Shown in pieces: positions 1-61,574 of a stretch of 64,000 nt of DNA. This DNA is from Psychrobacillus glaciei (GTDB lineage: Bacteria > Bacillota > Bacilli > Bacillales_A > Planococcaceae). Positions within the stretch are counted from its first letter, which is position 1. Every line of letters begins with the position of its first letter. Both the position numbers and the translations under genes were made by a program. Below the pieces are notes generated by a model. That model had not been told where the DNA came from and made no database searches. It was given only the letters and a program-made list of their open reading frames with translations. The stretch spans positions 186,001-250,000 of the forward strand of contig NZ_CP031223.1 in assembly GCF_008973485.1 (NCBI RefSeq). Direction: 5' to 3'.

Positions 1-387
1 AGCTTGATATTATTTATCGTATTAGTTGCTTTGGGTTTACCGTTATTATCAGGCGGACGTGGTGGTTTATCTGTATTAGTAGGACCATCTGCGGGATACA
101 TTTTGAGCTGGCCAATTGCCGCATTTTTTATCGGATTTGCAATTGAAAAAGTATGGTCATCGTTAAAAGTATGGAAAGTGATTGTCATCAATTTTATTTT
201 TGGCGTTGTACTTGTTAGTTTAATTGGTGCACCAATAATGGCACTCATCACTCATACTTCAATCTGGGCTGGACTTGTAGGTGCAACTGCATTTTTACCA
301 GGAGATCTAATTAAAGCAATTATTGTGGCTGTTATTGCTATACAACTAAAAGCTGTTAGTCCGATTGAACAGAAATTGAACAATTAA
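1..387 (+). CDS. bioY: BioY biotin transporter S-component (5' partial)
   Basis: This is the substrate-binding membrane subunit of an energy-coupling-factor (ECF) biotin transporter. The reading frame is open from base 1, so the N-terminal part, about one third of a typical 180-190 residue BioY, lies outside the window. The visible 128 residues contain the BioY signature region (PLLSGGRGGLSVLVGPSAGY) followed by hydrophobic helices and a C-terminal segment with PGDLIKAI, as in the intact BioY at 17556-18095. It is followed 33 bp later by an acyl-CoA ligase and, downstream in the same operon, by EcfA1, EcfA2 and EcfT, so it probably has a dedicated ECF motor. In Bacillus subtilis the BioY paralogue YhfU sits beside the thiolase YhfS and the ligase YhfT, which supports the same grouping here. 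Confidence 0.92.
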   Translation, partial: SLILFIVLVALGLPLLSGGRGGLSVLVGPSAGYILSWPIAAFFIGFAIEKVWSSLKVWKVIVINFIFGVVLVSLIGAPIMALITHTSIWAGLVGATAFLPGDLIKAIIVAVIAIQLKAVSPIEQKLNN

Positions 388-420
388 TAGATAGAATGAT
401 GAAATAGGTGTGAGGAAGAG

Positions 421-1902
421 ATGAATCTAGCAGAACCAATTGTACGATATGCAACAGAGCAGCCGAACAAAATTGCCTTAACAGATGGCCAAGATTGTCG
501 TACCTATTTGGAATTAGTAATGGCAATGAAAAAAATTGCGCATGGTTTGCAACAAAATGGCCTCGTGCATGAAAAAATTGCGATATTATCAACGAATCGC
601 ATGGAATTTGTAGAAGTTTTTTTAGGTGCCATTTATGCTGGATGTATTCCCATTCCTCTAGATCCTAAATGGAGTGAAAATGAAATAAGCGCCATTTTAC
701 AGCTATGTCAACCAAAAATGATTTTTGCAGAGCCTGTATTTGCAATAAATCTAACTTCGCAGGATAGTGAGATTCAATTGCTAACCTTTACAGCGGAAGA
801 AACAGGGTCCTATGACAACTGGTCAGCTCGTTTATTGCCAATTGCTGAAATGGATAACACGAACGAATTACTATTTATCGGCTTTACCTCAGGCACAACA
901 GGCATACCAAAAGGGTATATGCGTACACATTTGTCGTGGATTAAAAGCTTTGAAGCGACGAATGAAGCCTTCCAATTTGATAATATGGAACATATTTTGG
1001 CGCCAGGTCCGTTCGTACAGTCCTTATCATTATTTGCTTTAATGCAGAGCTTGTATTTTGGTGCTACATTTCATATCGTACATAAATTTAATCCTCAAGA
1101 GGTATTAACGCTTTGCAAACAGAATCCAGATGCTATTTTGTTTGTAGTTCCAACGATGATTGAATCGATGATGCAACAGGCTGTCCAAGAGCAAACGCAA
1201 ATTCAAGCGTTAATAAGTTCTGGTGCCAAATGGTCGACGGAATCGAAGAAAAGAGCTAAGGAAATATTTGGAGAGGCGAATTTATATGAATTTTATGGCT
1301 CATCCGAAGCGAGTTATATCAGTTATTTGGATGTCTTTGCAGAAAATAAATCCAATTCCGTAGGCAAACCCTTTTCAGGCGTTCAAGTATCCATTCGCGA
1401 TGAGCATTTTCAGGAAGCACCTATTGGAACAATTGGGCAGCTTTACATTCGAAGTGATTTGATGTTTTCAGGCTATCATCATTTGCCGGAAGAAACGTCA
1501 GCAGCTTTCCAAGATGGGTGGCTCATTCTTGGGGATTATATGTATATGGACGAAGATGGCTACTTATATTTGGCAGGTCGCGCGAAAAATATGCTTGTGT
1601 CGGGCGGCCTAAACATTTTTCCAGAAGAAGTAGAGTCGGTTCTACAACAACTTCCTGCAATCCAAGAAGTGATGGTGCTAGGAGTACCAGATTTATACTG
1701 GGGAGAACAGGTGACGGCACTCGTTAAGTGGAATGGACAACATCGCTTATCAATAAAAGAGATAAAAGATTATTGTCGTCAGCATTTAGCAAGCTATAAA
1801 GCTCCAAAGCAACTTATAACGGTGGACCATTTTATCTATACAGGCAATGGAAAATTGGCACGTAAAGCGATGAAAGACTATGTGGAGAAGGTGAAAGTAT
1901 GA
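421..1902 (+). CDS. AMP-forming acyl-CoA synthetase (YhfT-like)
   Basis: ANL-superfamily acyl-CoA ligase of 493 residues. It would activate a carboxylic acid to its acyl-adenylate and then to the CoA thioester. The ATP-binding loop is TSGTTGIPKGY near residue 160, the A5-type motif is YEFYGSSEAS, the hinge region is GDYMYMDEDGYLYLAGR, and the catalytic lysine sits in the C-terminal GNGKLARKAM. The start has a GAGGAAGAG ribosome site. The gene overlaps the following thiolase by 4 bp. Its position between bioY and a beta-oxidation-type enzyme set suggests a substrate linked to biotin supply, such as pimelate, a longer dicarboxylate or biotin itself. The substrate is inference and cannot be read from the sequence. 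Confidence 0.88.
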   Translation: MNLAEPIVRYATEQPNKIALTDGQDCRTYLELVMAMKKIAHGLQQNGLVHEKIAILSTNRMEFVEVFLGAIYAGCIPIPLDPKWSENEISAILQLCQPKMIFAEPVFAINLTSQDSEIQLLTFTAEETGSYDNWSARLLPIAEMDNTNELLFIGFTSGTTGIPKGYMRTHLSWIKSFEATNEAFQFDNMEHILAPGPFVQSLSLFALMQSLYFGATFHIVHKFNPQEVLTLCKQNPDAILFVVPTMIESMMQQAVQEQTQIQALISSGAKWSTESKKRAKEIFGEANLYEFYGSSEASYISYLDVFAENKSNSVGKPFSGVQVSIRDEHFQEAPIGTIGQLYIRSDLMFSGYHHLPEETSAAFQDGWLILGDYMYMDEDGYLYLAGRAKNMLVSGGLNIFPEEVESVLQQLPAIQEVMVLGVPDLYWGEQVTALVKWNGQHRLSIKEIKDYCRQHLASYKAPKQLITVDHFIYTGNGKLARKAMKDYVEKVKV

Positions 1903-3050
1903 CAGATGCTGTGATTGTCATGGCTAAACGTACACCGATAGGAAAGATGGGTGGCATATTAAGTACGCTTGAACCGGAGAAATTATTAGCGCCACTCATT
2001 CAGCATATTGTAGCGGAAACGAATTTGCCAAAGGACATAATTGATGATGTATTCATTGGTAATGTAGTTGGTCCAGGTGGCAATATTGCACGAGTTTCAG
2101 CTTTAGAAGCAGGTCTTCCTGTTACGGTACCTGGCGTTACGATCGACCGGCAATGTGGCTCTGGTTTAGAGGCGATAAATTTAGCGTCAAGGTTAATTCA
2201 AAGTGGTGCAGGAGAGGTTTATTTAGCTGGTGGTGTTGAAAGTACAAGCCGCGCACCTTGGAAAATGGCTAAACCGCAAACCTTGATGGGTGTACCGGAA
2301 TTATATACACGTGCTCATTTCACCCCGAAATCTTACGGTGATCCAGATATGGGTATTGCCGCTGAGAATGTCGCCCAAAAATATGCTATTTCTAGAGAAG
2401 AACAGGATAGATTTTCCTTGGAAAGCCATCAAAAAGCCATTCACTCTCAGCAAACTGGACGGTTTGAGCAAGAGATTGTGCCTCTTCAAGTTAAGGGAGA
2501 ATGGATTACAGAAGATGAATGCCCAAGATCTAATACGAACATGGAAAAACTGTCAAAACTTCTGCCTGTTTTTCAGGAACATGGAACCGTCACAGCAGGG
2601 AATACATGTCCACTTAATGACGGGGCAGCTCTTGTATTAATAATGTCAATTGAAAAATGTCGAGAGCTAAACCTCCAGCCTATTTTACGAGTAGTGGATG
2701 CTCAGGCAGCGGGTGTAGATCCCAATTATTTGGGTATCGGCCCTATTCCAGCTGTACAAAAGTTGCTAAAACGTCAGCAACTGACGGTAGATGATATTGA
2801 CATAGTGGAATTTAATGAAGCTTTTGCTTCACAAGTGTTAGCTTCGCTAAAGGAGCTTCAAATTCCACTACATAAAGTGAACCGCGGTGGCGGTGCACTA
2901 GCAATTGGCCATCCATTTGGCGCATCAGGTGCAATATTAATGACTCGTTTATGTGCTGAAATGCTGCATCAACCATATAAAAAGGGCATTGCCACACTCG
3001 GTATTGGCGGAGGCATAGGTCTTGCAACGCTTGTGGAGTCAGTCGAATGA
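1899..3050 (+). CDS. Thiolase family protein (YhfS-like) lacking the second catalytic cysteine
   Basis: Thiolase-fold acyl-CoA acyltransferase of 383 residues, which would cleave or form 3-oxoacyl-CoA. The nucleophile Cys86 is present in IDRQCGSG. NEAFA is present, and His338 lies in GHPFGASG. The usual second cysteine, in the C-terminal CxGGG motif, is replaced by glycine (residue 368, TLGIGGGIG). Loss of this general acid/base is unusual for a biosynthetic or degradative thiolase and may change direction, rate or substrate. The start overlaps the ligase stop (ATGA), and the stop overlaps the next start the same way, indicating translational coupling. A role in the biotin-precursor pathway is inferred from context. 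Confidence 0.87.
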   Translation: MTDAVIVMAKRTPIGKMGGILSTLEPEKLLAPLIQHIVAETNLPKDIIDDVFIGNVVGPGGNIARVSALEAGLPVTVPGVTIDRQCGSGLEAINLASRLIQSGAGEVYLAGGVESTSRAPWKMAKPQTLMGVPELYTRAHFTPKSYGDPDMGIAAENVAQKYAISREEQDRFSLESHQKAIHSQQTGRFEQEIVPLQVKGEWITEDECPRSNTNMEKLSKLLPVFQEHGTVTAGNTCPLNDGAALVLIMSIEKCRELNLQPILRVVDAQAAGVDPNYLGIGPIPAVQKLLKRQQLTVDDIDIVEFNEAFASQVLASLKELQIPLHKVNRGGGALAIGHPFGASGAILMTRLCAEMLHQPYKKGIATLGIGGGIGLATLVESVE

Positions 3051-3430
3051 AAAGGCTGCATGTACAGCTTTATGTGACCGATGAGTGGATTTCACACTAT
3101 GCTCAAAGTATTGAGTCTCCTATACAAACCATCCATGGAAAACTTATAGCACCGGTAACAATGCCCGTTATTTTTTGGCAAGCATTCAATATTCCTTGGC
3201 TGAAAACAGATACACCATTGATTCACGGGACTCAGCAGTTTTCATACAAGTCTCCCATTATCGCAGGAATGACATTAGATTGCGAATTCACTTTAACGAA
3301 GGTTTCCAAAAAAGAAGGTAAACAAGGCATGCTTACTTTTTTAACAAATACGCTAGATTGTAAATGCGAAGGGAACCTTATTGTCACAGCGGAAACCGTA
3401 TTAATTCAAGTAGGTGAACAAGATGAATAA
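3047..3430 (+). CDS. Hot-dog fold dehydratase-like subunit (MaoC N-type)
   Basis: A 127-residue protein resembling the N-terminal half of MaoC/FAS1-type dehydratases. The visible pattern is LIHGTQQFSYKSPIIAGMTL, the family's tail of the hot-dog helix followed by a beta strand. It lacks the catalytic Asp/His motif, which is in the next gene, so the two probably form a heteromeric hydratase, as in split enoyl-CoA or 3-hydroxyacyl dehydratases. It overlaps the thiolase by 4 bp and the next gene by 8 bp. Substrate unknown; an intermediate CoA thioester of the operon's pathway is likely. Confidence 0.75.
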   Translation: MKRLHVQLYVTDEWISHYAQSIESPIQTIHGKLIAPVTMPVIFWQAFNIPWLKTDTPLIHGTQQFSYKSPIIAGMTLDCEFTLTKVSKKEGKQGMLTFLTNTLDCKCEGNLIVTAETVLIQVGEQDE

Positions 3431-3764
3431 ACACGTCACAGCTGAAGTTATCCGACGATATGCAGCAGTTTCCAAAGATTCGGCTGCCATTCATGTAGAC
3501 AATGAAGCTGCAGCAAAGGTTGGATACAAGCGCCCCATAGCCCATGGCATGTATATCATGGGAGTCGCACAATCACTTTATTTAGCAGATCATCCAAAGC
3601 AATGGATTATAGATTATGATATGAAATTTCTAAAGCCACTATTAGTAGATACTGTCGCGATTTTTGATTTTGTGTTCAGTGAATGCAATATCGAAGTGAC
3701 GGTTACAGCAGAAACTGGTGAGGTAATTGCTTCGGGATCTTTTTCAGTAAAGGAGTTGGAGTGA
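3423..3764 (+). CDS. MaoC-like (R)-hydratase / dehydratase catalytic subunit
   Basis: A 113-residue single hot-dog domain carrying the hydratase-2 motif. The catalytic Asp and His are in SKDSAAIHVD, followed by PIAHGMYIMG. It would add water to or remove it from 2-enoyl/3-hydroxyacyl-CoA. The ATG at 3423 was chosen over an in-frame GTG at 3414 because AGGTG (3412-3416) is well spaced for it. The gene overlaps the upstream half-hydratase and ends within the start of the SDR gene, so the two hot-dog subunits are very likely made in equal amounts. Confidence 0.8.
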   Translation: MNKHVTAEVIRRYAAVSKDSAAIHVDNEAAAKVGYKRPIAHGMYIMGVAQSLYLADHPKQWIIDYDMKFLKPLLVDTVAIFDFVFSECNIEVTVTAETGEVIASGSFSVKELE

Positions 3765-4585
3765 TGAAAAAAGTAGCGATTATTACAGGTTCCACTAGGG
3801 GCATTGGTCGTAGCATCGCCATGCATCTTGCGCAATCTAACTACCAAGTAGTTATCAATGGCTCTAAGCAAGATTTAATAGACGAAGTAGTCCAAGAGAT
3901 TCAGCTAGCTGGTGGGGTAGCTATGGGATACCTTGCTGATGTAGCAGATCCTTTCGCAGTCACCGCTATGATTGATGCAGTCATAGCTAAATATGGCCGT
4001 ATAGATGTGCTGATTCCTAACGCTGGCAATTTACATGATCAAAAATGTATATATATGACGGATGAAGAGTGGCAATCTGTAATAGACGTGCATTTGAATG
4101 GTGCCTTTTATAGCATTCAGCGAGTGGTTCCACATATGCAAAAAAGTGGTGGTGACATACTTTTATTAACTTCTACAGCCGGATTAATGGGCTCTATTGG
4201 GCAAGTAAATTATAGCGCCGCAAAAGCCGGAGTGCTCGGCATGATGTGGACGCTTGCGGCTGAACTAAAACGCAATCATATTAGAGTAAATGCTATTTCA
4301 CCAGCTGCTTTAACGGATATGACCAGACCTGTAATCGAACATGTGAAGGGGAAATATGCGAGTAAAAATGAACCATTTCCAGAATTTTGGAAAGTTGGCG
4401 AAGCAGATGATATAGCTCGTTTTATTATTGCATTATTAGCGCAAGAAGATGAAGATTTAACTGGTGAAATATTTGGCGTTAACGGTTCAAAGGTGACAAA
4501 GTGGCATAAGCCCGTTCCTTCATTTTCTGAGAACAGTATAGATGCATTTTTTACTACATGGAAAAGTCAAAAAGGAAGTGAATAA
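3764..4585 (+). CDS. SDR-family 3-oxoacyl reductase (FabG-like)
   Basis: Short-chain dehydrogenase/reductase of 273 residues. The nucleotide-binding TGSTRGIGRS is at the N-terminus, followed by NAG, the catalytic Ser in LLTSTAG and the YSAAK Tyr/Lys pair. The TGSTRG loop is typical of NADP-dependent FabG-type reductases. It probably interconverts 3-oxoacyl-CoA and 3-hydroxyacyl-CoA between the thiolase and the hydratase of this operon. ATG 3764 was chosen; AGGAG at 3751-3755 is correctly spaced, and the upstream stop overlaps it. An enoyl reductase or acyl-CoA dehydrogenase that would complete a cycle is not in the window. Confidence 0.87.
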   Translation: MKKVAIITGSTRGIGRSIAMHLAQSNYQVVINGSKQDLIDEVVQEIQLAGGVAMGYLADVADPFAVTAMIDAVIAKYGRIDVLIPNAGNLHDQKCIYMTDEEWQSVIDVHLNGAFYSIQRVVPHMQKSGGDILLLTSTAGLMGSIGQVNYSAAKAGVLGMMWTLAAELKRNHIRVNAISPAALTDMTRPVIEHVKGKYASKNEPFPEFWKVGEADDIARFIIALLAQEDEDLTGEIFGVNGSKVTKWHKPVPSFSENSIDAFFTTWKSQKGSE

Positions 4586-5386
4586 ATGCTTACATTTGAT
4601 CATGTTCATTTTTATTATAAAAAAGGGCAGCCTGTTGTAGAGGATGTTAGCTTTACGATTAAAGCAGGAGAGTTTGTTTCGATTGTTGGAGCAAATGGGA
4701 GTGGGAAATCCACCATTGCTAAGCTAATGGATGGATTGCTACTACCAAAGGAAGGTACTATAAAACTTCAACAGCTAGACACGTCAAAAACAGCAGATTT
4801 GTTCGAAATTCATCAACAAATAGGCTTTGTTTTTCAAAATCCAGAGGACCAATTCATCACCACGACCGTCATGGATGAGGTGCTTTTTGGATTGGAGAAT
4901 ATTCGCGTTCCAAGGGAAGAAATGCGTAGTCGAATGGACCATGCGTTACTAGCTGTTCATATGGAGGATTATTTAGACTCAATGCCGCATCAACTATCTG
5001 GAGGTCAAAAGCAACGCGTAGCGATAGCAGCAATTTTGGCAATGCGTCCTCAAATTATAATTTTCGATGAGGCAACTTCTATGCTAGATCCACAGGGAAG
5101 GGAGCAGGTGCTATATATAATGCATGAATTGCATTTACAAGGCATGACGATTATTCACATTACTCATCATATGGAGGAAGTACTATCTGCTGAGCGCATT
5201 TTACTTATACATAAAGGTCGACTTCAATTTGACGGTGACCCGTTAACTTTTTTTGAAACAGTACCTGTAGCGGAATATCAATTACAACTACCGTTTTCCG
5301 TGCGTTTACATCAAACACTCCAACTTGAAAAGCCGATTAGTCCAGATTGGAAAGAGGGGATTCGTTCACAATGGCCTATCAATTAA
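4586..5386 (+). CDS. ecfA1: ECF transporter ATPase A1
   Basis: ATP-binding subunit of an ECF transporter, 266 residues. Walker A is GANGSGKST, the Q-loop region is FVFQNPEDQF, the signature is LSGGQKQR, and Walker B is IIIFDEATS, followed by a switch histidine in ITHH. The start abuts the SDR stop with no gap. With EcfA2 and EcfT it forms the energising module, here very probably for the BioY at the head of the operon. Bacillales normally carry a shared ECF module beside ribosomal protein genes, so this would be an extra, dedicated copy. That last point is inference because the rest of the genome is not visible. Confidence 0.93.
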   Translation: MLTFDHVHFYYKKGQPVVEDVSFTIKAGEFVSIVGANGSGKSTIAKLMDGLLLPKEGTIKLQQLDTSKTADLFEIHQQIGFVFQNPEDQFITTTVMDEVLFGLENIRVPREEMRSRMDHALLAVHMEDYLDSMPHQLSGGQKQRVAIAAILAMRPQIIIFDEATSMLDPQGREQVLYIMHELHLQGMTIIHITHHMEEVLSAERILLIHKGRLQFDGDPLTFFETVPVAEYQLQLPFSVRLHQTLQLEKPISPDWKEGIRSQWPIN

Positions 5387-6228
5387 ACAATGTATGTGTG
5401 AACTATTCCCATCAAATGGCTCTGAAGAATGTCAGTTGTACAATAGAAAAGGGAAAATGGATTTCTGTCATTGGTCAAACAGGTGCTGGAAAGTCCACGT
5501 TCGTCAAAGTGCTGAAGGGTTTGATCGCTTCCATTGATGGTAGCTATTTGATAGATGAGCAGCCCGTTAAAAAAGATGCCAAAGGACGATTAAAAGTCAT
5601 TCCGGAAATCGGATTCGTTTTTCAATATCCGGAGCATCAGCTATTTGAAACAACGGTTTTCAAGGAGCTTGCCTTTGCACTAAAGCAACAAGGTTCCTCA
5701 CGTCTGCAAATAAAAGAGGCTATTTCAAAGATTTTACCGCAATTAGGCTTGTCCGAGGAAATGCTTCCATTAGCCCCGTTCCAGCTAAGTGGAGGACAAA
5801 AGCGCCGCGTAGCCATTGCCTCTGTATTGATGACGGAACCGAAGCTTCTTATAGTGGATGAACCAACAGCAGGTCTCGACCCAAAAAGCAAAGTCGCTCT
5901 ATTGCAGCTTCTACAAGAATGGCAGCAACAAGAAAACAGGACCATTATCTTCGTATCGCATCAAATGGATGATGTTGCTGAGTATTCGGATAAGGTAATC
6001 GTATTTCACGAAGGGAAACTAATGGGACAATTTGATCCGAATCACTTATTTTTGGAGCAGTCTTCGTTACTGGAAAAAATAGGATTGTCACTACCAGAGC
6101 CTGTGCAGTTCCTAAAGCTACTGGAAGAATTATCTGGCCAGAAAATAGAAGTTGCAAGTTGTAGAGAGCAGGATATTTTTAGGGAAGTTAAACCTCTTTG
6201 GAATTCAAGGGGGCTTCTAAATGTCTAG
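5371..6228 (+). CDS. ecfA2: ECF transporter ATPase A2
   Basis: Second ECF ATPase, 285 residues from the ATG at 5371. Walker A is GQTGAGKST, the Q-loop is FVFQYPEHQLF, the signature is LSGGQKRR, and Walker B is LLIVDEPTAGLDP. The ATG was preferred to a TTG at 5347 because AGAGGGGA lies just upstream (5353-5360) and the protein then begins like other EcfA2 proteins. It overlaps ecfA1 by 16 bp and ecfT by 8 bp. It pairs with EcfA1 as the asymmetric motor of the transporter. Confidence 0.92.
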   Translation: MAYQLNNVCVNYSHQMALKNVSCTIEKGKWISVIGQTGAGKSTFVKVLKGLIASIDGSYLIDEQPVKKDAKGRLKVIPEIGFVFQYPEHQLFETTVFKELAFALKQQGSSRLQIKEAISKILPQLGLSEEMLPLAPFQLSGGQKRRVAIASVLMTEPKLLIVDEPTAGLDPKSKVALLQLLQEWQQQENRTIIFVSHQMDDVAEYSDKVIVFHEGKLMGQFDPNHLFLEQSSLLEKIGLSLPEPVQFLKLLEELSGQKIEVASCREQDIFREVKPLWNSRGLLNV

Positions 6229-7024
6229 TACCGTACTAATTGGCCAATATATGGAGACAAATTCCATGTTTCACCGACTAGATCCAAGGACGAAAATTTT
6301 ATGTATTTTTATTATTATGTTGAGCTTCCTAACACTAGAAACAGCAATTAGTTATGTGGTTTCAAGCCTTTTTGTTTTCGGGGTTTTGTTTTTATCCAAC
6401 GTTCCATTACACGTTTTTGTGAGAGGTTTAAAGCCATTATTATTTATTTTAATGTTCACTTTTCTATATAATGTCTTACTTACAAAAGGAACTACCATCT
6501 GGTCTTGGTCTTTCATAGAGGTGACTTGGGAAGGGTTAGAAAATGGGATGCGCTATGTCGGTCGTATTATTTTACTCGTATTATTAGCATCTGTCTTAAC
6601 GTTAACGACAATGCCGCTAGATTTAGCTAGAGGGCTTGAAAAACTACTAGCTCCGTTGTCCAAACTCAACGCGCCAGTGGAACAGTTTTCATTAATGATA
6701 GTCATTGCCATACGCTTTATCCCAACAATCTTGCAGGAGCTTGATCGGATTCTCCTGGCTCAAAAAGCAAGAGGATACGATATGTCATCATTATCGCTAC
6801 CAAAACGTATTTATGCTTACATCCCAATATTAATTCCTCTTCTCTTTACAACCATTCAACGGGCGGAGCAGCTGACCTACGCGATTGACGCACGTGCTTA
6901 TGGAAAAGGCAAGGGAAGAACTCAATATAAGCAGTTGCAATTTCAGCAAATCGATTACATAGCAGGGGCAATCGCAATTTTATTTGTGTTAACGCTACTA
7001 CTAATAAAGTTAGGGGGATTATAA
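6221..7024 (+). CDS. ecfT: ECF transporter transmembrane coupling protein T
   Basis: Membrane coupling subunit EcfT, 267 residues, with several hydrophobic helices between about residues 25 and 130 and one at the C-terminus. The two Ala-Arg-Gly-type coupling motifs are visible as QKARGYD and DARAYGKG; in this family they contact the ATPases. It completes a BioY-A1-A2-T set within one operon. Its stop is immediately followed by the start of the CHY zinc-finger gene. Confidence 0.92.
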   Translation: MSSTVLIGQYMETNSMFHRLDPRTKILCIFIIMLSFLTLETAISYVVSSLFVFGVLFLSNVPLHVFVRGLKPLLFILMFTFLYNVLLTKGTTIWSWSFIEVTWEGLENGMRYVGRIILLVLLASVLTLTTMPLDLARGLEKLLAPLSKLNAPVEQFSLMIVIAIRFIPTILQELDRILLAQKARGYDMSSLSLPKRIYAYIPILIPLLFTTIQRAEQLTYAIDARAYGKGKGRTQYKQLQFQQIDYIAGAIAILFVLTLLLIKLGGL

Positions 7025-7333
7025 ATGAAAGTCTATGGTGCTATCGTGGACAATGAAACACGTTGTACGCATTATCGTACGGAAAAAGATATTATCGCCA
7101 TAAAGTTTAAATGCTGCAATCGATACTATCCTTGCTACAAATGCCACGAGGAAGATGCAGACCATACGATCGAGCGTTGGCCGAAGGAGCAGTTTGACGA
7201 ATTGGCCATCCTTTGTGGTAGTTGCCAAACAGAGTTGACAATAAATGAGTATATGCAAACAGATAGCTGTCCACATTGTCAGGCAACCTTCAACGAGAGA
7301 TGTGCCGCGCATTATCCGATTTATTTTGAATGA
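7025..7333 (+). CDS. CHY zinc-finger protein
   Basis: A 102-residue protein rich in Cys and His. The pattern TRCTHY, CCNRYYPCYKCHEEDADH and later CGSCQ and CPHCQ matches the CHY zinc finger, which binds several zinc ions; the eukaryotic relative Hot13 acts on redox and zinc state of small proteins. It starts directly after ecfT with no gap and ends just before a strong terminator, so it is the last gene of the biotin/ECF operon. Its job there is unknown; zinc handling for an operon enzyme is only a guess. Confidence 0.85.
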   Translation: MKVYGAIVDNETRCTHYRTEKDIIAIKFKCCNRYYPCYKCHEEDADHTIERWPKEQFDELAILCGSCQTELTINEYMQTDSCPHCQATFNERCAAHYPIYFE

Positions 7334-17500: not shown

Positions 17501-17534
17501 TTGAGTTAACTAGTTATTATTGTGTGTTTACTTA
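17501..17534 (+). promoter_or_regulatory. BirA-type biotin operator
   Basis: The inverted arms TTGAGTTAAC and TGTTTACTTA flank 14 nt. Counted from the cores, GTTAAC and GTTTAC are 15 nt apart, the spacing of Bacillus BirA sites (TTGTTAAC near-palindromes). It lies 22 bp before the bioY start and over the predicted transcription start, as expected for biotin-dependent repression by BirA. The right arm is imperfect. Confidence 0.65.
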
Positions 17535-17555: not shown

Positions 17556-18095
17556 ATGAGAAATGAACGATTGAAAATGATGATTGTAGCTGCGCTATTC
17601 GCTGCAATTATTGCGGTTGCAGCACAGACTATGATTAATATACCACCAGTACCGTTTACGTTAATGACGATTGCAGTCATGCTAACAGTAACTATTCTTG
17701 GGAAAAAATTTGGCACTATAGCAGTGACTATCTATGTATTGATGGGAGTAATTGGTATACCTGTTTTTGCAGGAATGACGAGTGGATTAGGAATTATTAT
17801 AGGCCCAACCGGTGGATATCTCATAGCCATTATACCTGCCGCTTTATTTATAGGGTGGTATCTTGAAAAACTTGGATATACAAAAGTGCATGCAATTATT
17901 GCGAATATAATCGCAGTTTTTATAATATTAATTATTGGAGCAATTTGGTTAAAGTTTGTAGCAGCACTTCCTTGGGATGGGGCTTTTAAAGGAGGTATGC
18001 TCCCATTTATCTTGCCAGATCTTGCAAAAGCGATCGTTGCCGCATTGTTAGCAGTTATCATTAGAACTCGTTTAGTCACTGCAAAATTATTATAA
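17556..18095 (+). CDS. bioY: BioY biotin transporter S-component (solo)
   Basis: Intact 179-residue BioY with about six membrane helices and the family motifs ISVQ-like N-terminal region, TSGLGIIIGPTGGYL and PFILPDLAKAIVAALL. It binds biotin and pairs with an ECF motor; none is adjacent, so it must use a shared module or the one at 4586-7024. The ATG at 17556 has AGGGGG upstream; an earlier in-frame ATG at 17520 would lie inside the operator. Paired with the copy at the window's left edge, this makes two BioY proteins within 18 kb. Confidence 0.93.
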   Translation: MRNERLKMMIVAALFAAIIAVAAQTMINIPPVPFTLMTIAVMLTVTILGKKFGTIAVTIYVLMGVIGIPVFAGMTSGLGIIIGPTGGYLIAIIPAALFIGWYLEKLGYTKVHAIIANIIAVFIILIIGAIWLKFVAALPWDGAFKGGMLPFILPDLAKAIVAALLAVIIRTRLVTAKLL

Positions 18096-29474: not shown

Positions 29475-29640
29475 CTCTTATCAAGAGTGGCGGAGGGACT
29501 AGGCCCTACGATGCCCGGCAACCAACAAGTTCTGAACTTGGAAAGGTGCTAAATCCTACAAATTCAGAGTTTGAATTTGGAAGATAAGAGGAGGAACATG
29601 CGAAACTGCACCCCTCTTCTTAAGTGAAGAGGGGTTTTTG
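29475..29640 (+). ncRNA. SAM-I (S-box) riboswitch with terminator
   Basis: Classic S-box leader. P1 is CTCTTATC (29475-29482) with GATAAGAG (29583-29590). GGCGGAGGGACTAGGCCC, GATGCCCGGCAACC and AAGGTGCTAAATCC are the invariant segments of the aptamer. The expression platform ends in the terminator CCCCTCTTC / GAAGAGGGG (29611-29619 with 29626-29634) plus T5. When SAM is abundant it should stop transcription into metY and the homoserine dehydrogenase. Confidence 0.97.
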
Positions 29641-46669: not shown

Positions 46670-46717
46670 ACACAATATGTTAGATTGTATAAGTAAATAA
46701 AACACAATATATAGTAT
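46670..46717 (+). promoter_or_regulatory. Paired NrdR-like boxes and promoter of the nrd operon
   Basis: ACACAATATATAGTAT (46702-46717) matches the NrdR box (acaCwATATaTwGtgt) in nearly every position. A weaker copy, ACACAATATGTTAGAT, is at 46670-46685. Their starts are 32 bp apart, three helical turns, the spacing typical of paired NrdR boxes. TTGTAT (46685), 17 nt, TATATA (46708) gives a promoter whose -10 lies in the second box. Confidence 0.68.
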
Positions 46718-46734
46718 GTGAACGATGATTTGGT

Positions 46735-47025
46735 ACCTTTATGGTTTAAAAGGGAATTCGGTAAAAAAACCGAAGCTGTCCCCGCAACTGTGAGTGTGGA
46801 CGACTGTTGAAATAGCCACTTCGAGCAATCGAGGGAAGGTCGACAGAAGGATGAAACACGAGCCAGTAGACCTGCCTCTTCATCGGTGAAGCAACACTTT
46901 CTTCGGGGGTTGAGAGGTGGGGGCGAGGGACTCTCTTTCAACCAATTGATATGTCTTGTAGTTTCCTACTTTTTAAATTTGAGCGATAACTCAGCCGAAG
47001 AGGCTTGGGGTATCGCTTTTTTGTT
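46735..47025 (+). ncRNA. Cobalamin riboswitch with terminator
   Basis: AAAGGGAA (46759), GCTGTCCCCGCAACTGT, GCCACTTC, GAAGGTCGAC and GAGCCAGTAGACCTGCC (ending about 46878) are the core boxes of the B12 aptamer in the right order. The expression platform contains an AGCGATA / TATCGCT stem (46982-46988 with 47011-47017) with an inner paired segment and T6, a likely terminator. The next gene, from 47138, is ribonucleotide reductase. Confidence 0.93.
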
Positions 47026-61346: not shown

Positions 61347-61574
61347 TAAAGGGCACTTGCGCTTTTCTTTAAAGAAAGTATATAAGTTTTGATGCCATGA
61401 ACAGGTAGATTCCCGCTGAAAGAGGACGCGGCGACTTCTGCGGGAATAGCGTGAGCGGAAGGAAGGCTAAAGGCGCCTCTTCTCTGAGGCAACGCCTTCA
61501 TGACCAACATCCTGTTGGCCTAGGAGACTGAAGCCATGTCCGCGAAAAGCGTCCGCCATAGCGGAAATCAGGTG
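61347..61574. repeat. Dispersed intergenic repeat, copy 4 (module Q)
   Basis: It opens with AAAGGGCACTTGCG, like the end of module P. It then carries GCGGCGACTTCTGCGGGAA, GGCGCC and AACGCC arms that can pair, and closes with GCGAAAAGCGTCCGCC and ATAGCGGAAATCA, matching 8818-8905. It occupies nearly half of the 570-bp gap between the small protein and the TetR gene; the rest is AT-rich. Confidence 0.7.

Follow-up and report, generated by a model that had tools for sequence, protein, structure and literature searches.

The first 7333 bases of the window, by which we mean the whole 64,000-nucleotide stretch of the Psychrobacillus glaciei genome analysed here (C1:186001-250000; the genome has 4.35 Mb in 2 contigs and is 100% complete), carry an operon of ten plus-strand genes that runs from a BioY gene to a CHY zinc-finger gene, most of them overlapping by a few bases (Table 1). 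The gene set and order claimed for this DNA in an earlier note proved real: all ten genes lie almost without gaps on one strand, and the families assigned by Pfam agreed. The order and families also stood where the gene bounds did not, as BioY starts 165 bases before base 1 of the window and EcfA2 likely starts at the ATG at 5371. The substrate-binding (S), transmembrane (T) and ATPase (A) components of an energy-coupling factor (ECF) transporter are encoded together, which is the layout of a dedicated (group I) ECF importer.

Table 1. Genes of the operon, with positions in the window and the family matches on which each assignment is based.
Feature	Position	Strand	Evidence and remarks
BioY-type S component, 3' part	1..387	+	PF02632, E 5.5e-24 on the part in the window; ATG at C1:185836 (L003:7837)
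AMP-forming acyl-CoA ligase (YhfT position)	421..1902	+	PF00501, 4.5e-62; PF13193, 1.4e-14
Putative thiolase-fold condensing enzyme (YhfS position)	1899..3050	+	PF00108 (Thiolase_N), 3.6e-73; Gly368 replaces the second catalytic Cys
HadA-like hot-dog subunit, type I fatty acid synthase (FAS1) dehydratase region	3047..3430	+	PF13452, 4.5e-9
MaoC-like hot-dog subunit	3414..3764	+	PF01575, 2.9e-14; Asp22/His27
Short-chain dehydrogenase/reductase (SDR), FabG-like ketoreductase	3761..4585	+	PF00106 (adh_short), 7.1e-49
EcfA1 ATPase, dedicated ECF motor	4586..5386	+	TIGR04520, 322.4 bits, above the cut-off of 315; ABC_tran, 1.8e-33
EcfA2 ATPase	5371..6228	+	TIGR04521 best model, 285.9 bits, below the cut-off of 330; PF00005, 4.4e-29
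EcfT transmembrane component	6221..7024	+	PF02361 (CbiQ/EcfT), 2.2e-35
CHY zinc-finger protein	7025..7333	+	PF05495, 5e-14

Named genomes were scanned with eight operon thiolases, and the best 80 of 485 confirmed places were retained (the 80 loci; single loci are denoted by L and a number). The complete or partial operon recurred in these 80 Bacillota loci, and six loci other than the window's show the identical ten-gene order, with per-protein identities of 33 to 90%; they come from Psychrobacillus sp. OK032, P. soli, Rummeliibacillus suwonensis and three members of the genus Viridibacillus. The ten-gene set is not a chance association, because six other loci share it and 71 of the 80 loci have BioY together with the ligase and thiolase. 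The ligase was present in all 80 loci, BioY in 71, the SDR in 59, MaoC in 53, HadA in 51, EcfT in 34, a FabK-like gene in 23 and CHY in 15. The commonest arrangements were BioY-ligase-thiolase-hydratase-SDR (13 loci), the bare BioY-ligase-thiolase form (11) and BioY-ligase-thiolase-SDR (9); forms with hydratase, SDR, ECF and FabK genes numbered nine with CHY and nine without. Exceptions in order were L103 (BioY-thiolase-ligase) and L104 and L119, in which ECF genes and an amidohydrolase gene intervene. BioY was masked by an antisense frame in six loci when the longest open reading frames were called, and was restored by tblastn.

A set of 86 loci was used for the residue and operator counts. 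It counts two loci twice (L036 = L060, L039 = L073), duplicates also carried by the 85 thiolases and 77 BioY proteins; L034 and L035 (same as L043 and L042), L040 (no operon) and the L085 thiolase (frame broken) were omitted. Key residues of three further enzymes were conserved: the C-terminal catalytic-type Lys of the ligase in 82 of 84 aligned sequences (the remaining two having gaps), the Asp and His of the MaoC-like protein in 51/51, and the Ser, Tyr and Lys of the SDR in 64/64, in alignments whose underlying gene clusters miss some diverged members.

The earlier note had proposed a search for the same neighbourhood across the Planococcaceae. In this family, the window's own, the thiolase was present at E ≤ 1e-120 in 11 of 151 genomes, and within the window's genus in 3 of 17; the threshold may miss diverged copies (weakest accepted match, 8.3e-121). 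The operon is not chiefly a feature of this family, however, as Paenibacillus accounts for 29 of the 80 best loci. Identity of the window thiolase is 85% with the Paenibacillus glacialis enzyme but 66-69% with those of Viridibacillus from its own family, suggesting transfer between families.

A BirA-type operator, TGTGTTAACC-N13-TGTTTACACA, lies upstream of BioY at C1:185720-185752, outside the window, and its right half overlaps the −35 element of a promoter-like pair (TTTACA-17-TATGAT). The earlier note had proposed a search for such a site ahead of base 1; the search gave this sequence match, and the genome also encodes a single BirA (TIGR00121, 220.6 bits; 326 amino acids) of the DNA-binding type (group II), with a helix-turn-helix domain (HTH_11 at residues 7-60, 63.8 bits). 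The strict pattern GTTWACC-N12-17-GTTWACA matched the 4.35-Mb genome once, exactly at the operator, and the backward control pattern gave 10 matches. Scored against a 20-letter consensus that we take to be that of BirA, the window operator reached 17/20, compared with a maximum of 16 in 60 shuffles. A score of at least 16 within 300 bases of the first gene was reached by 69 of the 86 loci (two duplicates among the 69); scores of 16-17 alone are weak, because single shuffles reach 15 to 17 (shuffle means, 12.5 to 14.2). Boxes of at least 18/20 were confined to the heads of 40 operons (39 distinct) when both strands of the 1.756 Mb of loci were scanned; one seemingly separate plus-strand match was the own box of the minus-strand operon L038, and the 40 minus-strand matches were the same palindromes reversed. 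For L104 and L119 the score came from the stretch before the ligase only, and a scan of both whole loci found no box of at least 18. Five loci without BioY (L044, L056, L062, L063 and L066) have boxes of 18-20 before the ligase, indicating that the enzymes themselves are under the box. As a separate observation, two Paenibacillus loci (L051 and L085) kept the enzymes and the motor, but both BioY and a BirA box were missing from the examined stretch; upstream of them lies a vitamin-uptake-type transporter gene (Vut_1, PF02592).

The thiolase is unusual in its active site. Cys86, Asn306 and His338, the nucleophilic Cys, the Asn of the NEAF motif and the His of the GHP motif, were conserved in 85/85 operon thiolases. 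Position 368, the second catalytic Cys of the CxG motif, which we take to correspond to Cys378 of the Zoogloea enzyme, was Gly in all 85. Among 17 thiolases of three carrier genomes (the window genome, L045 and L076), the three operon copies have Gly, whereas the 14 others have Cys. Outside the Bacillota, Gly is likewise found in the thiolases paired with the ligase in Azospirillum, S. meliloti and R. etli, and Ala, judged by eye, in those of Paracoccus and Thioclava. In ordinary thiolases the second Cys deprotonates acetyl-CoA; without it the site resembles the Cys-His-Asn site of β-ketoacyl-acyl carrier protein (ACP) synthase III (KASIII), which uses a malonyl donor. Since the base Cys is replaced by Gly and the site becomes KASIII-like, the sequence suggests that this thiolase-fold protein is a condensing enzyme acting in the biosynthetic direction. 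Cys237, also invariant (85/85), was considered as a possible replacement base, but its position presumably corresponds to a CoA-contacting Ser of the Zoogloea enzyme.

According to the earlier note, a full cycle lacked only an enoyl reductase or acyl-CoA dehydrogenase. Pfam found no acyl-CoA dehydrogenase among the ten operon genes, but the wider set of loci supplied a reductase, as a FabK-like gene is present in 23 of the 80 loci and always together with both the SDR and a hydratase (23/23). Six of the 23 FabK-like proteins were scanned and all matched PF03060 (E 4e-60 to 1e-65); the other 17 were assigned by clustering. The closest solved relative of the L044 copy was the FabK enoyl-ACP reductase 7l00 (E 1.8e-68), with enoyl reductases and nitronate monooxygenase types ranking below it in the PDB. 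The window genome has a FabK-like copy, 65% identical, elsewhere (C1:1251616), among neighbours that by eye have no obvious link to the operon. Judged from its sequence, the operon is thus real, conserved, headed by a predicted biotin-repressor site and chemically fuller than the earlier note could see.

The S component was compared with characterized BioY. Asp163 and Lys166 (L. lactis numbering, offset 10), to which we ascribe the biotin-binding role in BioY, were present in 77/77 operon BioY proteins, and Asn79 was replaced by Arg in 77/77. Arg79 was considered as a sign against biotin transport and dropped, since BioY encoded next to A and T genes on alphaproteobacterial plasmids has the same Arg. 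Against the solved L. lactis BioY, the operon S component scored 120 bits and the second BioY of the genome 68 bits. This second, lone BioY gene lies at 17556-18095 (+) in the window, is 33% identical to the operon BioY, and has a weaker BirA-like site (GTTAACT-N14-GTTTACT, 17505-17532) upstream.

Biotin synthesis genes were searched for in 49 carrier genomes, comprising the window genome (G000, the only one with a completeness figure) and 48 genomes of the 80 loci chosen to span the arrangements. BioW was found in 7, BioB in 27 and BioA over its cut-off in 14 (one with an internal stop); BioW was thus absent from 42, BioB from 22, and BioA was not over the cut-off in 35. None of the three was found in the window genome. 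The claim that the operon supplies or salvages pimeloyl-CoA did not survive these counts, and a pimelate role was rejected for the 22 carriers without BioB, the window genome included. These 22 lack the known thiophane-ring-closing enzyme, so anything made for biotin there must already hold the ring. Thirteen carriers have BioB without BioA. In four of the six such loci that were read (L233, L234, L235 and L237), bioB follows bioY, two of them confirmed by Pfam, and judging from these genes the four genomes are likely dethiobiotin scavengers. The bare BioY-ligase-thiolase form was found in 5 of 7 BioW-positive carriers vs. 2 of 42 BioW-negative ones (p 2e-4, kinship not corrected).

Related sets were also found in other phyla, in chosen records rather than a survey: nine were opened of 103 BioY plasmid records, and five of 908 thiolase records. 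Ligase and thiolase adjoin BioY in four of the nine plasmid records. Azospirillum lipoferum has A, T, BioY, ligase and thiolase in a row, Sinorhizobium sp. C101 has the pair beside BioY, and in Paracoccus sp. SMMA_5 and Thioclava a nitroreductase accompanies BioY and the adjoining pair; the thiolases of the latter two are 38%, and their ligases 26-27%, identical to the window proteins. Their nitroreductase-family flavoproteins, encoded beside the importer, ligase and thiolase (L247:6514-7191 in Thioclava, L250:5176-5868 in Paracoccus), may be a third type of reductase acting at this step. In another form, a thioesterase and an enoyl-reductase-like medium-chain dehydrogenase/reductase (MDR) accompany the ligase and thiolase, in rhizobia (L252-L254, L256) and in the actinomycete Streptantibioticus cattleyicolor (L255), with BioY and an ECF ATPase in L253 and L255. 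The order is A, T, BioY, ligase, thiolase, thioesterase, MDR in S. meliloti; MDR, thioesterase, A, BioY, ligase, thiolase in Streptantibioticus; and MDR, thioesterase, ligase, thiolase, with no BioY within the opened stretch, in Rhizobium etli CFN 42, CIAT 652 and R. leguminosarum. Both thioesterases scanned were 4HBT proteins. The S. meliloti MDR matched a putative quinone reductase best (7e-34), followed by mitochondrial 2-enoyl thioester reductases (~1e-22). By homology, we count the MDR and thioesterase sets as a probable independent replacement of the enoyl reductase, which would favour an elongation cycle.

We tentatively read the operon as a BirA-repressed salvage operon of a soil bacterium that would import a carboxylic acid and add two carbons to it, most likely turning bisnorbiotin into biotin; a two-carbon extension that ends at biotin points to bisnorbiotin as the acid. 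When biotin is low, BirA would leave the operator and the ECF importer would take up the acid, which the ligase would convert to its CoA thioester. The thiolase-fold enzyme, with its KASIII-like Cys-Asn-His site, would condense this acyl-CoA with a two-carbon (C2) donor; given the loss of the base cysteine, malonyl-CoA is a more likely donor than acetyl-CoA. The SDR would then reduce the product and HadA/MaoC dehydrate it, and a FabK-type enzyme, encoded in the operon in Paenibacillus and Kurthia and possibly represented by the 65% identical paralogue in the window genome, would reduce the enoyl-CoA. A thioesterase would free the acid, now two carbons longer: most likely biotin from bisnorbiotin, or dethiobiotin from bisnor-dethiobiotin where BioB exists. 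The purpose would be the repair of side chains shortened by the β-oxidation of other organisms. Put in full, the proposal is that bisnorbiotin, perhaps also tetranorbiotin, is imported and re-extended by a dedicated C2 cycle that is linked to CoA and uses a KASIII-like thiolase, so that biotin could be gained without BioB, and that Bacillota, Alphaproteobacteria and Actinomycetota each put such a system together around a different enoyl reductase; in this specific form we consider it somewhat less likely than not. The earlier suggestion that the operon reworks biotin vitamers is in this sense still standing, backed by the BirA-type site and the carriers without BioB, while the substrate and direction are our own deductions.

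Several results weigh against this proposal. The best curated models, PRK07638 for the ligase (458.6 bits, cut-off 518) and PRK06690 for the thiolase (443.3 bits, equivalog cut-off 498), which we take to stand for YhfT and YhfS, were both below cut-off, as was the best NCBIfam model of the L044 FabK-like protein (TIGR03151, 286.9 bits, cut-off 453.1). The malonyl-CoA donor step is deduced from a single residue of the sequence. At 1e-8, the 86 Bacillota loci yielded no thioesterase homologue, and two of them (L104 and L119, both Paenibacillus) have an acyl-CoA dehydrogenase of the L119 kind near the operon. The box score was below 16 in 17 of the 86 loci, L051, L085, L090 and L101 among them, shuffles reach 15-17, and 11 of the 80 loci have the bare BioY-ligase-thiolase core only. 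In the window's family, BioB was present in 9 of 11 carriers vs. 86 of 140 non-carriers (p 0.21, not significant), and in this family the operon can therefore not be regarded simply as an aid to auxotrophs. On the plasmids, five of the nine opened stretches, whose annotation is incomplete, showed no ligase or thiolase by BioY (Fusobacterium, P. denitrificans, Arthrobacter, L. plantarum and Thermomicrobium), and no BioR-type box with at most one mismatch was found in ten plasmid loci, which leaves biotin control unproven in these. Finally, YhfU (now called PanU), the S component found at the syntenic position in B. subtilis, is repressed by BirA and was shown to be needed for pantothenate uptake (PMC11487621). 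This could mean that the S component is broad, that the B. subtilis one has diverged, or that the operon serves lipid and CoA metabolism instead. Because the substrate is assigned indirectly and YhfU serves pantothenate, we keep our confidence in the salvage proposal below even.

The lipid alternative would make the operon a biotin-sparing module: as acetyl-CoA carboxylase fails without biotin, fatty or short acids from outside would be activated and elongated as CoA esters, with the S component bringing pantothenate for CoA. The CoA-type elongation set, FabK included in 23 of the 80 loci, and the many carriers without BioB or BioA are consistent with this, and the pantothenate uptake by BirA-repressed YhfU speaks for it (PMC11487621). 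To bypass the carboxylase, however, the condensation would have to use acetyl-CoA, and the Cys that activates acetyl-CoA is gone from all 85 thiolases; the operon S component is also nearer to the solved L. lactis BioY than the second BioY is (120 vs. 68 bits). Bacilli, moreover, make phospholipids from acyl-ACP and acyl-phosphate rather than from acyl-CoA, and the outlet for the elongated acyl-CoA would be unclear. We regard this explanation as unlikely. Somewhat less likely still is that the thiolase, with one of its two catalytic Cys left, merely passes an acyl group from CoA to ACP, an amine or an alcohol while the other genes modify the product. The 11 loci with BioY, ligase and thiolase alone would suit such a transferase, but hydratase, SDR and FabK perform the steps of C2 elongation, and FabK occurs only alongside the other two.

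That the operon instead shortens the side chain of biotin or its analogues appears improbable. Ligase, thiolase, hydratase and SDR would fit β-oxidation, and L104 and L119 have an acyl-CoA dehydrogenase nearby; yet control by BirA would shut the operon off when biotin is abundant, the second thiolase cysteine is lost, the recurrent redox partner is FabK-like, and the other 84 loci have no homologue of that dehydrogenase at 1e-8. Pimeloyl-CoA synthesis or salvage, for example from glutaryl-CoA, which was the leading idea of the earlier note, is the least probable and in our view very hard to sustain. The elongation from C5 to C7 would suit the enzymes, 3-oxoadipyl-CoA thiolases are among the nearest thiolase models, and according to a review it is not known where BioW obtains its pimelate (PMC11089781). 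Against these points stand the absences of BioB (22/49), BioW (42/49) and BioA over its cut-off (35/49), with none of the three in the window genome; the bare core, moreover, is commoner in carriers that have BioW (5/7 vs. 2/42, p 2e-4, descent uncorrected).

Among known systems, the operon is closest to B. subtilis yhfU-yhfT-yhfS, a kinship supported by the shared BioY-ligase-thiolase order on one strand and by the BirA operator, with orthology read from gene order only. To our knowledge, yhfUTS has three genes and no hydratases, SDR, FabK or dedicated motor, so that the extended operon enlarges a theme that is still unexplained. It also resembles reverse β-oxidation and type II fatty acid synthesis (FAS II) in its sequence of condensation, ketoreduction, dehydration and enoyl reduction, but it is coupled to an importer of the vitamin type and to a biotin repressor, and its thiolase lacks the second cysteine. 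Like BioMNY of Alphaproteobacteria, it joins BioY to its own A and T components, with ligase and thiolase following on Azospirillum, Paracoccus and Sinorhizobium plasmids; BioMNY differs in having one ATPase gene and, in some cases, a thioesterase and MDR or a nitroreductase nearby, and the BioMNY-type copy on a P. denitrificans plasmid has no ligase or thiolase within the opened stretch. Binding of B. subtilis BirA to the yhfU operator requires both biotin and ATP (PMC4016012). The YhfU (PanU) protein shares with the window S component its family, syntenic place and repression by BirA, but uses the general EcfA1-EcfA2-EcfT, whereas the window operon has a private set (PMC11487621). In S. aureus, ligase and thiolase (yhfS-yhfT) are likewise under biotin/BirA control, although as a target apart from bioY and with a function given only as putative (PMC7235819, PMC6391492); yhfT-yhfS are described as BirA targets of putative function in a review as well (PMC11089781). 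The BioZ pathway is a further case of two-carbon elongation serving biotin (PMC7645780, PMC8024396, PMC11089781), but it leads from glutaryl-CoA to 3-ketopimeloyl-ACP and still needs BioB, which 22 of the 49 carriers lack. No account of the extended operon or of biotin side-chain re-extension was found in the open literature, a search that subscription papers mostly escape.

The extended operons indicate what type of chemistry goes with yhfT-yhfS, a reductive C2 cycle joined by a thioesterase in some loci of two other phyla, and the genomes unable to make biotin narrow the choice of substrate. If side-chain repair is its function, biotin degradation products would be a nutrient, some supposed auxotrophs would not depend on intact biotin alone, and the operon would offer a natural example of a thiolase converted to a KAS-like enzyme.

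A few further features were noted. The CHY zinc-finger gene is retained after EcfT, and ahead of FabK if that is present, across genera (15 of the 80 loci). In the two Paenibacillus loci with the altered order, an adenine-deaminase-like amidohydrolase gene lies between EcfT and the ligase (L104:6742-8481 and L119:6682-8406), genes for a GT28-like glycosyltransferase and the acyl-CoA dehydrogenase follow this cluster, and in L104 an MDR-like stretch immediately precedes BioY. Elsewhere in the window, Rfam identified a SAM riboswitch (29475-29590, +), a cobalamin riboswitch (46714-46893, +) and a Bacillaceae-1 RNA (61451-61518, +).

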